NCBI GenBank assembly: GCA_946186275.1
Contig: CAMHMO010000008.1
Coordinates: forward strand, 1-53,035
DNA length: 53,035 bases
Source of the DNA: an uncultured Verrucomicrobiota bacterium
Lineage (GTDB): Bacteria > Verrucomicrobiota > Verrucomicrobiia > Opitutales > UBA9783
Direction of reading: 5' to 3'
Shown one piece after another: positions 20,411 to 37,402 of this stretch (positions are counted from its first letter, which is position 1; each line of letters opens with the position of its first letter). The position numbers and the translations under genes were made by a program. The notes beneath the pieces were generated by a model. It was not told where the DNA came from. It did not search any database and saw nothing but the letters and a program-made list of their open reading frames with translations.

Positions 20411-22897
20411 TTACCTGCGACGATGCGCACGAACCCGCGGCTTCTTAACTTCCGATTTTACGGTCTCCGCTCTGCGAACGGTCGAATTCCGTCGGTTCCG
20501 AAGCGCCTGCCGAGCTTGATTCTCACGCGAAGCCGACGTCGGAGAAACGTTTCGAGCGGCAGAAGCCTTTCTCGCATGAGCCCTTCTCAACTTCGAAGCA
20601 CTTTCTTCCCGCGCCTGACGCTCCGCACGTTCGGCACGCGCCTGCATTCGCTTTTCCTTGCGAATTTGACGCGCCTCTTCGGCTTCGGCTTTGCGCTCCG
20701 CCTTCAACTCTTTGATGCGCTGTTTCCGCTTGTCGTCTTCGTCCATCTCGGGCTTGTCGGAGAAACGTCCCGTCTCTTCGTAGGCGTTGATCTCATCGCG
20801 CGTTTTGGACGTCAGATTTTCCTTGTACAATTCCGTATCCGCACGAACGGCATCGTTGTTCTGCAACAGAACCGGACGGATGAAAACGATCATCTCCGTT
20901 GTTTCCTCGGATTTTCCTTTGCCTGTGAACAGCTCGCCGATACCCGGAATGTCGCCTAACAAGAACGTCTTGCGTTTGGTGCGGGTCGTTTCTTTCTTCT
21001 TAAGACCGCCGAGAACAATCATTTCGCCGGATTTCGCCGAAACGAACGATTTGAGCTGACGTTTGTTGATGTACGGAATCGTCACGCGATTGTTCGAAGA
21101 GCCGACCGCCATGGAATTTGCCGTAAAGTTGTCGATCTTTTGATCGATTTCCAGCTGAACCGTACCGTCGGTTCCGATCCACGGCTTGATAGTTAACACG
21201 ATACCGGCATCCACCTGATCGACCGTGCTGTTCGAAACATCCGCATCGGTAGATCCGGAACCGGCTTTCGTCTGCAACGCTTTGATGTACGGACGCGTTT
21301 CAACCACGCTCAACGTCGCTTCGCGCGCATGCGTCGTCAGCAACGTCGGCGACGAAACAATCTTAATGTTTTGTTTCGTCTTTGCGGCATTCAAGATACC
21401 GTCAATGGTCACCCGCGAATGCTTACCCCAATCAACAAAACCGCTGAGGATAGGCGACGTAACGCCCGGAATTGATGCTGCACCCGGAGCAAGCTGATTG
21501 GTGAAACCCGTATAATTCTTCGATTCTTTCCCCTCTGCATTCCAGGTCGGTTTCGTGATAACGCCGTCACCGTGCTTAAACCCGAAGCTTTCCAGACCGC
21601 TTGCCTGACCGTCCGTCAAACGAACTTCCGCAATCACGACCTCGAGACGAATTTGCGGCAACACGACATCCAGCTGATTGAGAAGGTTCTGGATTTGACG
21701 AATGTCGGACGGGGTTCCGTACGCCACAATCGCATTGAGACGCTCGTCGCATTCGATGCTGAGTTTCTCGCTGAAAGCCGCCGTCGAAGCACCGGCTTGC
21801 GTGCCGCTGTTGGTCTCTTTTTGTTGCGACATCAACTTCTTGATTAACTCGGTAATTTCCTTGGAAGAGCCGTGTTGAATGCGGAACACATGATGTTGAA
21901 CCAGCGGATCGACCGTTGCGTCCAGCTTCTCGACAAATTCGCGGATCATCGGTTCGTTGCCTTTCGGTGTCACGACGATGAACGAATTCGTATTCTTATC
22001 CGAGGCGAACGACGTGTTCCCCAACAGGTAGTACTTTAAAGCACCCTTTTGCAGATCCTCGAAACTCGCTTTCAGGCTTTCGACGCTCGCGTTTTTCGGC
22101 TGGAACCACAAAATGGCATCCTGTACGTCGCCGACGCGGTCGATGCGACTGAAAATATTGTCCAACTGCTGCAAATTCGCCAGCGAATCGGTGACAAATA
22201 ACGCATTGGCTTTATCCAAAGCGACCACGGAGGACGTCAACGGGGTTACCCACGGCATGACCGTACGGGCACCTTCACGCGCCGTCAAATTCTCCAAACG
22301 GAACATGCAACAACAAACCTCCTGGCTGCTCGCCATCGTCGACAAAGCTTCGCGGTCGACAATGCGCGGCGCACTGCTTTTCGCCTGATTGATCGGGATC
22401 GCCTTCAATGTATCGTCTCCCATCGGAACCACGGCGACCTTATTGGCGGCCAGCGCGCTCATCAACGTCGCAATCGCCTTTTCGCGCGACAGCGGCTTCT
22501 GAATATCCAGATTGACGGTGCTCTTCGGCAACCCCTCCCCCTGGATGATGATGCGATCCGTCCATTTGCCCAGCAGCGACAGAACCTGCGCGATCGATTC
22601 GTCCACCAACGAGAGCGAATCGATGAAGGTTTCGTCGGCACGCGTACGTGCGGCATTCGCCGAACGCCGCGCGGTGCCGCGCCCCGCGCTCGCAGAACTT
22701 GCCGGTCGTGCAACCGCACCGATATCTGCCGGATTGGAAACTGCGGGATTGTCGTCGCCCGGCGCCGCGATTGCCGGCGATATCGCCGCAAAAACGCCGC
22801 CGAACAACAAACATGCCCGCAACCTGTTGTTATTCATGTTGTTATTCATGTTGTTATTCATGTTGTTATTCATGTTGTTATTCATGTTGTTATTCAT
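20411..22897 (-). CDS. gspD: type II secretion outer-membrane secretin GspD
   Basis: An 828-residue secretin that forms the outer-membrane channel. The product begins with six MNNN repeats, then a signal peptide (RLRACLLFGGVFAAISPAIA), low-complexity linker, N-domains with repeated secretin_N modules (FSRIDRVGDVQDA, FRIQHGSSKEITELIKKL) and the C-terminal beta-barrel domain with VVIAEVRLTDG, VSSPTLLTTHAREA and the conserved SGEMIVLGGL...GDIPGIGELFTGK...MIVFIRPVLL block. It ends in an unusual Arg/Lys/Ala-rich tail of about 120 residues beyond the barrel. The ATG at 22897 is chosen for the excellent GGAAGGGTGA site; a frame start at 22981 lacks any signal sequence. Confidence 0.95.
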   Translation of the reverse strand: MNNNMNNNMNNNMNNNMNNNMNNNRLRACLLFGGVFAAISPAIAAPGDDNPAVSNPADIGAVARPASSASAGRGTARRSANAARTRADETFIDSLSLVDESIAQVLSLLGKWTDRIIIQGEGLPKSTVNLDIQKPLSREKAIATLMSALAANKVAVVPMGDDTLKAIPINQAKSSAPRIVDREALSTMASSQEVCCCMFRLENLTAREGARTVMPWVTPLTSSVVALDKANALFVTDSLANLQQLDNIFSRIDRVGDVQDAILWFQPKNASVESLKASFEDLQKGALKYYLLGNTSFASDKNTNSFIVVTPKGNEPMIREFVEKLDATVDPLVQHHVFRIQHGSSKEITELIKKLMSQQKETNSGTQAGASTAAFSEKLSIECDERLNAIVAYGTPSDIRQIQNLLNQLDVVLPQIRLEVVIAEVRLTDGQASGLESFGFKHGDGVITKPTWNAEGKESKNYTGFTNQLAPGAASIPGVTSPILSGFVDWGKHSRVTIDGILNAAKTKQNIKIVSSPTLLTTHAREATLSVVETRPYIKALQTKAGSGSTDADVSNSTVDQVDAGIVLTIKPWIGTDGTVQLEIDQKIDNFTANSMAVGSSNNRVTIPYINKRQLKSFVSAKSGEMIVLGGLKKKETTRTKRKTFLLGDIPGIGELFTGKGKSEETTEMIVFIRPVLLQNNDAVRADTELYKENLTSKTRDEINAYEETGRFSDKPEMDEDDKRKQRIKELKAERKAEAEEARQIRKEKRMQARAERAERQAREESASKLRRAHARKASAARNVSPTSASRENQARQALRNRRNSTVRRAETVKSEVKKPRVRAHRRR
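22826..22897 (-). repeat. 12-bp coding tandem repeat, six copies, at the gspD start
   Basis: ATGAATAACAAC is repeated six times without error, encoding MNNN six times and offering six in-frame start codons. Only the last copy is adjacent to the hydrophobic signal core. The unit is a multiple of three, so copy changes would lengthen or shorten the signal-peptide n-region rather than break the frame. Confidence 0.95.
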
Positions 22898-22973
22898 GAA
22901 AAAATCACCCTTCCAGAGGCTTTTGTCGCCATCGGAACATTTTTGTCGTCCGAAAAAACACCTTTCTTCTTTA

Positions 22974-23513
22974 TTACTCATGCGAAACCTTTTTCAACTG
23001 CAACGCATTAAACGAACATTCCGCCTCCAATTTTTGCGGATCGAAGGCGTTGGCACGTAATTTTATCTTCTCAAGCGACAGATACGGCTTCCTTCCGTAG
23101 ACGCCTTTCTCGAACGCAATCAAATCCTCCATCGTGATATTTTCGCAGTGCAACTGCAACGTGTGCGCATCAAACATATCCTCTCGACGCGTGCTTGGCG
23201 AATCCATCGAATAGCTCGCTTTGTAGGGACGAATAAGCGTTTCGACCTCGCCCGAGAAAGCCGCCCCCGACAAACTTTTGGCGGGATCAATCGAAGAAAG
23301 CACTTTCTCCAGATTCCCGTGAACGGTTTCCTTGTTCTTGAGCCAAAAAAGCTGCTTTTCGGTTTTTTTGGAAACCGCCTGCCAGTCTTCCAGCAAGCTT
23401 GTCCCCTGTTGAACACAGCTTGAAATCCAGAAGAACGCAACCACGCTCAGAAGCATGAAAATCAAAAACTTCTCGCGCCCGTTGCGCTTCGATAAACAAT
23501 TTAAAAGTTTCAT
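22974..23513 (-). CDS. gspM: GspM/PilO-like T2SS inner-membrane protein
   Basis: A 179-residue bitopic protein: basic N-terminus (SKRNGREK), one membrane helix (FLIFMLLSVVAFFWISS), a coiled-coil-like stretch (KKTEKQLFWLKNKETVHGNLEKVL) and a small ferredoxin-like periplasmic domain, the GspM/PilO plan. Identification rests on topology and its place between the GspL-like gene and gspD. Its ATG overlaps the preceding stop (TAATG), indicating translational coupling. A Cys in the membrane exit (SSCVQQG) slightly resembles a lipobox but lies after a helix with no cleavage context. Confidence 0.7.
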   Translation of the reverse strand: MKLLNCLSKRNGREKFLIFMLLSVVAFFWISSCVQQGTSLLEDWQAVSKKTEKQLFWLKNKETVHGNLEKVLSSIDPAKSLSGAAFSGEVETLIRPYKASYSMDSPSTRREDMFDAHTLQLHCENITMEDLIAFEKGVYGRKPYLSLEKIKLRANAFDPQKLEAECSFNALQLKKVSHE

Positions 23514-31934: not shown

Positions 31935-32465
31935 TTACGGCTTTTGAAGTTCCCAAATACACGGTTCTTTGTCTTCCGTTTGTTGCAAAAGATACAAACG
32001 CCCTTCGTACAACATCGGTGTGATGTGCGTTTGTTCATCCAAATGCAGCGGTTGTTCCGAAAAGGGATAGCGTTTATCCCGATAACGCAACGTACCTTCG
32101 AAGCGGTTCGGAAGCATCGTTGCTTTCCCCAATTCCAATGTCAGTACCTGATTGAGGCGATCGTCGCGAACGGTGACGGTTTTGTGTAAAGCATCGGCAT
32201 CCGACAATGTGACGCCGTCGATCGTTTCGCCGAGGTGCAGCGAAAAAAGTCGTCCGTCTTCGGTTTTTAACAGATACCGAATGTTTGAATTCTCCGCCGA
32301 AAAACCTTTGTACATAAAGCGGTAGGGAACGAAGCGAAACTCCTCCAAAACAAAGGGTTGATTTCCTTTGGTCGGCAACGGTTGCAGCCAATCGCGCGCG
32401 AACGCACCATTCGGGACGGTTATGAACAGGGTTACGGGAAGAAAAAGACAAAACCAAGATTTCAT
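31935..32465 (-). CDS. orphan exported protein next to the GspE-family ATPase
   Basis: A 176-residue product with a clear signal peptide (SWFCLFLPVTLFITVPNGAFA|RDW-like). The mature part seems a small beta protein (RFVPYRFMYKGF, YLLKTEDGRLFSLHLGE, LTLELGKATML). The ATG overlaps the stop of the upstream GspE-family ATPase gene (ATGA), so the two are coupled. It may be an exported component of the same assembly system, for instance a pilus-biogenesis lipoprotein-like factor, but no family was recognised. Confidence 0.65.
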   Translation of the reverse strand: MKSWFCLFLPVTLFITVPNGAFARDWLQPLPTKGNQPFVLEEFRFVPYRFMYKGFSAENSNIRYLLKTEDGRLFSLHLGETIDGVTLSDADALHKTVTVRDDRLNQVLTLELGKATMLPNRFEGTLRYRDKRYPFSEQPLHLDEQTHITPMLYEGRLYLLQQTEDKEPCIWELQKP

Positions 32466-33661
32466 GATTTTTGTTCGTTAAAAAACCGACCGTTGCCCTG
32501 CCACGAAAATTGCGGCGATGCTTCGTCCGACCGCCACGTTTGGTGGATTTGCAGCCGGACGTTGTCCTTAAATTCCTCAAAAGCAATTCCCAGTTCTTTA
32601 CAGCGAAACGGTACCAGCGACAGCGTATTGGCATGAATCGTGGTGAGCACCAAAAATCCCGATAAACTCGCGTAAAAAGCGGCTTTTGCGGTTTCGGCAT
32701 CGCGAATTTCGCCGATCATGACGGCATCGGGATCCTGCCGCAACGTCCCCGTCAAAGCTTCTTCGAAGGTTAAATTATTTTTAACATCGATGTCCGTCTG
32801 TACCCAATCGTCGATTTCCGCTTCGACGGGATCCTCCAGAGATATCAGCTTTAATCCCTGTCGCGCAAACAGCCGCCCGAGCGCGTACAAAGTCGTCGTC
32901 TTTCCGCTTCCCGTTGGGCCGGAAATTAAAATCATGCCGGAACGCTGCTTCGAAATTTCCGTTTCCAGAAACGCACGCAGTCGCGGCGGAAAATGAAGCG
33001 CATCGATTTGAAACGGCAACGTTTGTTCGCTCAACAGACGCAGGGTCAGCGATTGCGCGCCGCCGTCGGTAAGGTACGAAATGCGTCCGAAAATCACTTT
33101 GCCGTTTAAATCGTACCGAAAATGTCCCTCTTGGTTTTCGAAGGTTTCGCTGAAATTTAAATTCCCGAGTACGAGAAAACTGCGCAACAGCAACAGACCG
33201 TCTTCGTAGGGCAGTTCCTTCGTATTTTGTACCATGCGCGCGCAACGAAACGATACCGAAGCCGAACGCCCCGTTAACGCAACAAAACAGTCGGACGCTT
33301 TTAACCGAATTGCCTCCTCCAACACCCGTCGTATGTGAAGATTTTCGGAAATCCCGACAACATCCTCATCCCAAAGCGACGGTTCCGTGCAAAGCGTCCA
33401 GGCACGTCCCGTTGCCCGCTCCAAATACGGCAGGCAGGAAACAAACGCAACATCTTCGACGCAAAGCACGCACCGATCGGGCGTTTCGCGAAAACGCAAA
33501 CCGCAGGCGCGCAGAGCCTCAAACGTCGCTTGAGGACGGTGCGGCGGAAGTTTTTTGAGGGCACGCAGTTGTCGGTGACGCTTTATCGCATCCCGAGCAT
33601 GTGCCGCTCTTGTGATCGGAGCACGAACCGCACGAAGCATGCTGCTTGTAATCCGTTTCAT
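32462..33661 (-). CDS. second GspE/PilB/PilT-family ATPase, short form
   Basis: A 399-residue type II/IV secretion ATPase with Walker A GPTGSGKTT, Asp box LEDPVEAEID, Walker B VMIGEIRDAET and His box VLTTIHANTLS. It differs from the operon GspE in lacking the CxxC zinc element and most of the C-terminal domain after the His box (which ends about 50 residues later), and in having a short, Arg-rich N-terminus. No platform or pilin gene is adjacent. The first 47 codons overlap the FmdB gene, an unusually long overlap; no later start is close enough to keep the whole N2 domain except at the cost of about 70 residues. Function likely in another pilus or uptake system. Confidence 0.85.
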   Translation of the reverse strand: MKRITSSMLRAVRAPITRAAHARDAIKRHRQLRALKKLPPHRPQATFEALRACGLRFRETPDRCVLCVEDVAFVSCLPYLERATGRAWTLCTEPSLWDEDVVGISENLHIRRVLEEAIRLKASDCFVALTGRSASVSFRCARMVQNTKELPYEDGLLLLRSFLVLGNLNFSETFENQEGHFRYDLNGKVIFGRISYLTDGGAQSLTLRLLSEQTLPFQIDALHFPPRLRAFLETEISKQRSGMILISGPTGSGKTTTLYALGRLFARQGLKLISLEDPVEAEIDDWVQTDIDVKNNLTFEEALTGTLRQDPDAVMIGEIRDAETAKAAFYASLSGFLVLTTIHANTLSLVPFRCKELGIAFEEFKDNVRLQIHQTWRSDEASPQFSWQGNGRFFNEQKS

Positions 33662-33984: not shown

Positions 33985-35025
33985 TCAGCAATGTGAAGAT
34001 TGTTTTCCGAATGTAACCTTGGAGAGCGGAAATTCTTTTGTGCAAAAATACTCCGTCAACTTCTTTACTGCGGGTGTCAAAGTCGCGCCGTCTTTCGGAC
34101 GGATAACCAATTCCCTCATTCTGCCTATAATTTCAATGTAAATAGGAACGACGCTACCATTTTTTTCGATACAATCCAAGCACAATTGATTGCTCAAGCA
34201 ATCTGCAACTGTATGGCAATGCAACATATTTTTACCATCGAAATACGGACGTTTTTTAAGAACATAAGCTGTTATTTCTTGCAACGGTATAAACTTATCC
34301 CACACAATTTTCTTCCCCGTATGTTCCTCTTCCCAAAATGCCCCTGGCAAAGGTTCAACCGAAGCACAAACAGTATTGTATATTTTCTGGATGTCCATAT
34401 CCCAAGTTAAGCGACTGTCTTCCGGATTCCGATGTCGCCATGTCTTCGCAAGCGTTTCATTCTGCTTTAAGACCGTGATTTTTTCGTCGCTTAAAATTTT
34501 AGGGATTAAACGCTTCAGCAAATCGCTTGCGCACTGTTGATCTTTTACAGCTAAATTTCGCCAGGTGTCGGTCAATGAAACAGGAAATTTTTTTACGGCA
34601 ATAATAGGCCCTTCATCGACCTTTGGTGCCATCAGATGCATCGAACACCCCGATTCCTGCTTGTTTTCAATCAAGCTCCATTGGCGCGGGTTGGAACCGC
34701 GGAATTGAGGCAAAATACCGCCGTGCAAATTGATGCACGCTCTCGGTATTTTCAATACCTCCGGAGGTAAAATCATGGAATAATTGTTACTAATGCAAAA
34801 AGAAGGAGCATTTTTTTCAATCGACCTTATCCAATCCGTGTACAAAGAATCTGTTTTTTTCGGTTGAATAAGGAAAGGTACATGAAGCTCATTAGCTAAC
34901 GCATGAAGTTCTTCCCGATATTCGGGATGATTGCCCGCATTTACGATAGCGCAAACTTTCTCTTTGCCAAGGTGCGACAATACTTGTTTTACGCCCTCAA
35001 CGTTACCAAACAAGATAACCTTCAC
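33985..35025 (-). CDS. formyltransferase-family protein, probably sugar N-formyltransferase
   Basis: A 346-residue protein with the 10-formyl-tetrahydrofolate-dependent formyltransferase core: MKVILFGNVEG start, the SFCISNNYSMILPPEVL strand, the catalytic Asn-x-His in INLHGGILPQFRGSNP and the Asp in APKVDEGPIIAV. Met-tRNA formyltransferase would be followed by a distinct C-terminal barrel and sits with def; here the C-terminus and the neighbouring radical SAM gene instead suggest modification of an amino sugar in surface glycan synthesis. The substrate is an inference. The gene is AT-rich relative to its neighbours. It uses a GTG start. Confidence 0.8.
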   Translation of the reverse strand: MKVILFGNVEGVKQVLSHLGKEKVCAIVNAGNHPEYREELHALANELHVPFLIQPKKTDSLYTDWIRSIEKNAPSFCISNNYSMILPPEVLKIPRACINLHGGILPQFRGSNPRQWSLIENKQESGCSMHLMAPKVDEGPIIAVKKFPVSLTDTWRNLAVKDQQCASDLLKRLIPKILSDEKITVLKQNETLAKTWRHRNPEDSRLTWDMDIQKIYNTVCASVEPLPGAFWEEEHTGKKIVWDKFIPLQEITAYVLKKRPYFDGKNMLHCHTVADCLSNQLCLDCIEKNGSVVPIYIEIIGRMRELVIRPKDGATLTPAVKKLTEYFCTKEFPLSKVTFGKQSSHC

Positions 35026-35275: not shown

Positions 35276-36258
35276 TTAACGCGACGCAAACGCCCGCGCC
35301 AACTGCTCCATATCAACCGTCATCGCGTTAAATTCCAGACGCGGGATACCGAGTTGCATGCATTCGCGGCAGGTTGCGCTTTCACTATGCAGCCGTTGCC
35401 ATTTTTCCGGCGTCATTTCAAAGACGTCGCCGAGATCTTCATCAACCAAACAGCACAGAACACAACGACCGTCGGCATCGATGGTTAAATTGGGTGCCAT
35501 GGGACAGCGGGTTGTCGGTTTCAGGTTTCCCATGCCGACGCCCGTCAGTAAATCCCGTGCGACATTGTTCAAATACTCTCTGTCCAAAGTTCCCTGCAAA
35601 AAATCTTTTAACTTTTCCCAATCGTTAATGACCGCAAAAACGGGATGGCAGACGATGTTCAGCGTCTTTGCAAAATCATATGCCGCCTGCAGTTCGTGCA
35701 AATTGAACTGATAGACATGAAAGTAGATATAGAATTCACCAACAAAGCCGTGTTGTCGGAACGTACGAACGATGATTTCGATATTTTTCTTAATGCGATC
35801 GAAATCAAAGCGGTGAATTTTGTCGTATGACGCCTGACTGAAACCGCACATCGAAAACTTTACAAAACCGATGTTCGAAGCGTCGAAACTATCGGGCAGT
35901 TTCGGCAAAACGGCGGCGTTGGTGCTGAGCGCGACAAGACAGTTTTCTTTTTTTGAAATTTCGATGATTTTCGCAAATTCCGGATGCAACATCGGGTCGC
36001 CCCAGTTGTAAAGGTGAATTTTTGTCCCTTCTTCGACAAACCCCTGTGCTTTCAAATAACGCAAAACACGTTCGAACAACGAAATTTCGATAAACTTTGC
36101 GCGCCTGTTACATTGCGGGGGGGGGGGGTCTTGTTGCGGTTACGGAATCCCGTTTGGCAGTAATAACACTGCGCATTGCAAACGTTGCAAATGTCAAACG
36201 CCAAATGTTTTTCGGTATATTGGGAAAAAGTCGAAGACGGTGAGGCGGCGTTTGACAT
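35276..36258 (-). pseudogene. radical SAM/SPASM enzyme gene, frameshifted at a C12 tract (probable phase-OFF allele)
   Basis: From ATG 36258 the frame encodes the radical SAM start with the [4Fe-4S] motif CNAQCYYC, then RNRNK. It enters 12 C residues (36128-36117) and goes out of frame after T-P-P-P, ending at about 68 codons. The remaining enzyme (SAM barrel with GDPMLHPEF, STNAAVLP; SPASM-like CVLCC and CRECMQLG) continues in the -1/+2 frame to a stop at 35276. With 10 or 13 C the two parts fuse to one protein of about 327 residues. Such SPASM proteins modify peptides or small molecules and occur in surface-polysaccharide loci. The role here is unknown; the adjacent formyltransferase suggests a sugar or nucleotide-sugar. 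A sequencing error in the tract cannot be excluded. Confidence 0.85.
36117..36128. repeat. homopolymer G12 (C12 on the coding strand) inside the radical SAM gene
   Basis: Twelve consecutive G on the plus strand lie exactly where the radical SAM frame breaks. This is by far the longest homopolymer I noticed here, and of a type known for slipped-strand variation. Frame restoration needs a number of C equal to 1 modulo 3. Confidence 0.97.
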
Positions 36259-36355: not shown

Positions 36356-37402
36356 TCACCGATCCGATTTTGGATTGTTTCTTTCGAGTATCTCTTCAAT
36401 CCACCGTCGATGCGGACCACTCAGAACAACGGTATCCAACCGTTGAAGCGGGAACCATCGGCATCCCTCAAACGGCGGCGTTTTGAAAAATGCTTCCGAA
36501 CGGTTTCCGTTCGTCGATGAGTGCGGTTGATAAACAACTTCCGTGTAAGTTGTATTCGCAACGGTACGTTTGGCGCGAAAAAGTTCCCTTAAATTCGAAA
36601 ATTGCGCTCGTCGGCCGTCGTTCAATTCCGGCAATTCCCACAGGGCCTCCCCGCCACCGATGCGCGACGGTTCCAAAAGTAATTTCCCGTTTATGAAGAG
36701 CCACAGGCGGTTGACGGTTTTTTTAAAGTGCGGTGTCGGTTGAAAGCGTGGGCAGGCTCCGACGGTATGTTCGCGAAAGGCTTTACAAAGCGTTCGGATC
36801 GGACAATGTTCGCAGTCGGGTGCCGTCGGCGTGCATACAACGGCTCCCAATTCCATCATTGCTTCGTTAAAGCTTCCCGCCTGCTCTTTATCCAATAGGA
36901 ATTGTGCATGCGGCGTCGCCCAAACGATCGCGGCGGATTTGGAGGGAAAATTTTCGGAATAATTAAAAACCCGCGCCAATACCCGCACGACATTGCCGTC
37001 AACAACGGCAATCGGTTCGTTCCAAGCGATGCTCGCAATCGCGGCGGCGGTGTAGGAGCCGATGCCGGGGCAATGCAACAATTCACGATACGACCGCGGC
37101 GGATTTTGGGCAAAACGTTTCGCAGTTTGATGCAAATGCCGCGTGCGCGCATAATATCCGAGACCTGACCATGCATGCAGGACGGCTTCTTTGGGTGCGG
37201 ACGCAAGAACTTCAAAGTTCGGGAATACCTCCATCCAACGCTCAAAGTACGGCAGGACGGTTTTTACCTGCGTCTGTTGAAGCATGAATTCCGAGACAAC
37301 GGTTTTGTACAAAGACGACTCGCGTCGCCACGGCAAATCGCGCGCGTTTTGTCGGAACCATTGCAACAACATACGGCAGAAAGAATGTTCAAAATCGGGC
37401 AT
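36356..37402 (-). CDS. mutY: A/G-specific adenine glycosylase MutY
   Basis: A 348-residue base-excision enzyme that removes adenine opposite 8-oxoguanine. Seen: SEFMLQQTQV with the catalytic Glu, helix-hairpin-helix CPGIGSYTAAAIAS, catalytic Asp in VVDGNVVRVLAR, and the iron-sulfur cluster C-x6-C-x2-C-x5-C in CTPTAPDCEHCPIRTLC. The C-terminal part (from about 225) is the NUDIX-like 8-oxoG recognition domain (ALWELPE). Length normal. Stops about 97 bases before the radical SAM gene on the same strand. MutY reduces G:C to T:A changes, so it has no direct bearing on slippage of the nearby G tract. Confidence 0.97.
   Translation of the reverse strand: MPDFEHSFCRMLLQWFRQNARDLPWRRESSLYKTVVSEFMLQQTQVKTVLPYFERWMEVFPNFEVLASAPKEAVLHAWSGLGYYARTRHLHQTAKRFAQNPPRSYRELLHCPGIGSYTAAAIASIAWNEPIAVVDGNVVRVLARVFNYSENFPSKSAAIVWATPHAQFLLDKEQAGSFNEAMMELGAVVCTPTAPDCEHCPIRTLCKAFREHTVGACPRFQPTPHFKKTVNRLWLFINGKLLLEPSRIGGGEALWELPELNDGRRAQFSNLRELFRAKRTVANTTYTEVVYQPHSSTNGNRSEAFFKTPPFEGCRWFPLQRLDTVVLSGPHRRWIEEILERNNPKSDR

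Follow-up and report, generated by a model that had tools for sequence, protein, structure and literature searches.

The window, a stretch of 53,035 nucleotides, is contig 8 of the 16-contig genome G000, a metagenome assembly of 1.02 Mb and 92% completeness from a gut or rumen bacterium of the order Opitutales, phylum Verrucomicrobiota. Its minus strand carries a radical SAM gene that is divided into two parts. The 5' part (36052..36258, minus strand) starts with an ATG at 36258, matches the N-terminus of intact orthologues and encodes the CxxxCxxC motif in the form CNAQCYYC. It then enters a homopolymer of 12 C (36117..36128, minus strand; G12 on the forward strand), located about 44 codons into the gene, and terminates at a zero-frame stop codon (36052-36054), giving a truncated product of 68 residues. 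The 3' part (35276..36112, minus strand) is read in another frame, in which the remaining approximately 278 residues (35279-36112) are open, and encodes the rest of the radical SAM domain, the conserved C-terminal cysteines and the stop codon. The sequence-only reading had placed the frame break exactly at the C12 tract and an intact CxxxCxxC motif in the upstream part, and both statements were confirmed. Its arithmetic is also correct: a tract of 10 or 13 C would join the two parts into a single frame with 326 or 327 codons. No other G/C run in the window reaches 8 bases. As is typical of contingency loci, the tract is longer than expected by chance and long enough to slip, and its length sets the frame in which a gene intact in other respects is read.

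Upstream of the radical SAM gene lies a gene for a mutY-like adenine glycosylase (36356..37402, minus strand), a conserved neighbour in all three genomes of the genus. The gene located directly downstream (33985..35025, minus strand) encodes a formyltransferase (Formyl_trans_N) with a sub-threshold resemblance to ArnA-type sugar formyltransferases; this species alone has it in this position. It is followed by a gene for a type II secretion or pilus-type ATPase (32462..33661, minus strand), which in the congeners is the next conserved downstream neighbour; this gene and the mutY-like gene were named by eye. The radical SAM gene had been assumed to belong to a surface structure, an assignment for which these neighbours give no clear support.

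Tandem repeats are also present in the window. A perfect 12-bp repeat of 6.2 copies (22825-22898) lies within the 5' end of an 856-residue ORF (20411-22981, minus strand); since the unit is a multiple of three, changes of its length would not shift the frame. The contig itself starts within a perfect 14-bp tandem repeat of 3.9 copies (1-55), probably the point at which assembly stopped.

The intact orthologue matches the PF04055 profile (E = 5e-12, 46.7 bits against a cut-off of 29.5), which places the protein in the radical SAM superfamily, and the CxxxCxxC motif is present in all 12 family members. The downstream part had been described as supplying the rest of the domain together with SPASM cysteines. 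The rest of the domain is indeed encoded there, as are five C-terminal cysteines conserved in 11-12 of the 12 family members, while the match to the Pfam SPASM model (PF13186) is below threshold (E = 0.24, 12.1 bits against 21.5). The SPASM label, based on the cysteines and not on a model match passing the threshold, is thus a putative one. A profile search of solved structures for function gave no match, and the sole phmmer match was a weak one to cytosylglucuronate decarboxylase (E = 0.008). All matches to NCBIfam models were far below their cut-offs, the best being W_rSAM_matur (65 bits against 380), and no substrate is therefore claimed. A role of the enzyme in the modification of surface glycans or peptides would be only a guess.

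The tract site corresponds to the loop that follows the CxxxCxxC motif and precedes the next helix, and the length of this loop differs among the 12 family members. The AlphaFold model of the orthologue, obtained with 5 sequences (pLDDT 54), contains a low-confidence loop at the tract. Owing to this natural variability in length, extra prolines in the loop should be tolerated.

The comparison set comprised one genome per species. The scan of genome contigs for relatives yielded only two congeners plus two genomes from another genus of the family, and no further genome of the species. The congeners G001 and G002 are Opitutales metagenome-assembled genomes; by contig, one corresponds to Verrucomicrobia bacterium UBA3222 and the other to Opitutales bacterium RGIG5041 from roe-deer rumen. 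The members of the other genus are from horse faeces and UBA3869. Both congeners carry an intact orthologue at the same place, adjoining the mutY-like gene: 325 residues with C7 at the tract site in G001 and 324 residues with C6 in G002. The sequences at this site are ACCCCCCCCCCCCGCAATGT in G000, ATCCCCCCCGCATGT in G001 and ATCCCCCCATGT in G002. Among these species, each represented by one genome, tract lengths are thus C12, C7 and C6, and the long tract is known only in the species studied here. Alleles with 10 or 13 C had been suggested as something to look for in relatives; intact in-frame alleles do occur in them, with C6 and C7 rather than with either of those lengths.

The broken gene matches the G002 orthologue at 93% downstream of the tract and 86% upstream of it; the corresponding values for G001 are 89% and 87%. 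Comparison with the intact orthologues of both congeners revealed no second lesion. The situation named in the sequence-only reading as evidence against a switch, relatives sharing the broken gene with further mutations, is consequently not what is seen. The dN/dS values against the congeners are 0.08-0.12 downstream of the tract and 0.04-0.08 upstream, indicating strong purifying selection on both halves, and the lineage-unique changes in the downstream part comprise 23 synonymous and 9 nonsynonymous ones. An old pseudogene is rejected by the low dN/dS and the lack of another lesion. A single lesion combined with purifying selection in both halves indicates that the break either arose recently, can be reversed or is an error.

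The last of these options would imply that most cells in truth carry a tract of 10 or 13 C and that the gene is simply on. Runs of 12 G or C are error-prone, the genome is assembled from a metagenome, and its contigs end at repeats. However, when about 20 neighbouring genes were checked against the congeners, the radical SAM gene alone was split; spurious frameshifts are absent from the remainder of this region, and a general decay of the assembly there is rejected since the other genes are unbroken. Moreover, even a miscounted long tract would still be real and slippery, and a consensus error of 1-2 bases may itself reflect a mixed population. A homopolymer error of assembly or sequencing is thus considered quite unlikely.

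Long homopolymer runs permit slippage of polymerases and ribosomes. The purifying selection on both halves is also what would be expected if the C12 allele always yielded full-length enzyme because RNA polymerase or the ribosome slips on the run. The congeners, however, have the gene in frame and hence no conserved programmed site, which makes constant production of this kind very improbable.

Analysis of the whole genome revealed long G/C runs in excess of expectation. Three runs of at least 12 bases (12, 12, and 14) were observed in 1.02 Mb, against 0.02 expected under a first-order and 0.0007 under a third-order Markov model; for runs of at least 10 bases, 4 were observed and 0.03-0.46 expected. 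Loss of mismatch repair as the source of these tracts is not supported, both MutS and MutL being found in the genome. The 14-base run is a C14 followed by A12, located about 50 bases upstream of the start codon of a beta-barrel outer membrane protein (OMP) gene (G000:C2:21712), and a G10 lies in frame within an OMP paralogue. A G9 directly follows a TTGAC sequence about 30 bases before the start of a predicted secreted-protein gene (G000:C3:59939).

The beta-barrel OMP family is also characterized by (CTAC)n repeats, with n of 3-10, which follow an A-tract plus TTG motif and precede the start codon. In G000 such sites are located at C1:5357, C3:29461 and C6:75887, upstream of C2:21777, and at the contig ends C2:151781 and C5:99185. 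One further OMP paralogue has (CT)10 in the corresponding place and another has CTTT-type repeats. The OMP paralogues of the congeners carry the same repeats in other copy numbers, and (CTAC)4 is shared by the three congeneric genomes, while none of 11 other genomes contains it. Similar features are found elsewhere in the family: in G004, from another genus, G12/C11 tracts are located at OMP starts, and in G005, likewise from another genus, a G15 at C22:2242 splits a gene in a sugar-type/glycan-type cluster, the halves being open in different frames. The OMP repeats may act in promoters or leaders.

Not every long tract need be part of a switch. The second 12-base run (C1:141837) belongs to the 5' part of a gene of the helicase/REase_MTES_1575 type that is similar to candidate defence genes. 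Besides the run, this gene has a deletion of one base and an in-frame TAA, whereas the copies of both congeners are open. Since it is decayed beyond its tract, long tracts can mark plain gene death. The radical SAM gene could likewise represent a recent fixed loss, in which chance growth of the tract has left the species with a permanent frameshift, other lesions having yet to accrue. Radical SAM paralogues elsewhere adjoin fliQ/fliR-like genes, and in both congeners a second family member is located between fliQ/fliR-like genes and dnaN. It is absent from the same locus of G000 (C2:47228 region), leaving the gene at the C12 tract as the family's single copy in G000, and the missing copy makes loss of the family a real rival. 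Decay is nevertheless expected after a fixed frameshift, while this gene has acquired no other lesion in a lineage still under purifying selection, and a 12-base tract reverts easily. A fixed loss is for these reasons considered unlikely.

Overall, we estimate a probability of roughly two in three that the radical SAM gene is a translational contingency (phase-variable) locus assembled in its off state. This reading appears the most probable because several slippery repeats are present in the genome, many of them at OMP genes, and because repeats occur at OMP and glycan-type genes in the family. The switch claimed in the sequence-only reading is consistent with the frame break, the intact alleles of the congeners, the lack of a second lesion, the signature of selection and the repeat background; from these we infer the switching itself.

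In the proposed mechanism, slipped-strand mispairing during replication would lengthen or shorten the C tract. Lengths of 10, 13 or 16 C would give one read-through enzyme of about 326-328 residues, with extra prolines in the loop of variable length, and other lengths would give a short product lacking the rest of the enzyme, such as the 68 residues predicted at C12. The C12 assembly would then correspond to the off state, and switching would presumably be reversible and of benefit to the cell. The tracts of the congeners (C6 and C7) are short and unlikely to switch often, so that switching would be limited to the species studied here.

A broader proposal, to which we give somewhat less than even odds, is that small-genome gut and rumen Opitutales operate a phasome of several repeat types. 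The (CTAC)n, (CT)n and poly-G/C repeats between TTG or TTGAC and OMP starts would set promoter spacing or leader length, and intragenic poly-G/C tracts would switch modifying enzymes, represented here by the only radical SAM family copy in the genome. Among the papers searched, none named both Opitutales and phase variation. The present data point to surface variation driven by repeats in Opitutales of gut and rumen that are uncultured, and the tract coordinates given here can be used to count alleles in existing metagenome reads. If this is correct, genes that look like pseudogenes at tracts of this kind in the assemblies should not be taken as lost functions.

The Opitutales group would then be the second verrucomicrobial case, beside Akkermansia. 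In Akkermansia muciniphila, a G9/G10 frameshift in Amuc_1413, a gene of exopolysaccharide export, arose in culture and was accompanied by mixed reads and by loss of mucus binding (PMC13055324); such switching had been proposed earlier in the Akkermansia genome paper (PMC3048395). Both cases belong to the same phylum, and in both a G/C tract lies within the gene close to its 5' end, where a frameshift results in a short truncated product. They differ in that the gene here encodes a radical SAM protein with one assembled allele known, whereas length changes of Amuc_1413 were seen in culture.

A radical SAM switch is also not without precedent, and less unusual than first supposed, since the core phasome of Campylobacter fetus lists the poly-G radical SAM genes CFT03427_1545 and CFT03427_1558 and the formyltransferase CFT03427_1556 (PMC6321876). 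In both organisms a radical SAM gene contains a long G/C homopolymer; one formyltransferase is listed in the C. fetus phasome, and a formyltransferase gene adjoins the gene here. C. fetus, however, belongs to another phylum and its tracts are G9-10 in contrast to C12, and the likeness is one of gene class.

The OMP family of G000 resembles porA, opa and nadA of Neisseria and sabA of Helicobacter, surface OMP genes generally known to have simple repeats inside the gene or shortly before it (PMC2791445, PMC2715451), although the G000 family is unrelated to these and its repeat units differ. Compared with these systems, the radical SAM locus likely adds to a known type of switch, and the repeat-laden OMP family of Opitutales is likely the less expected feature.
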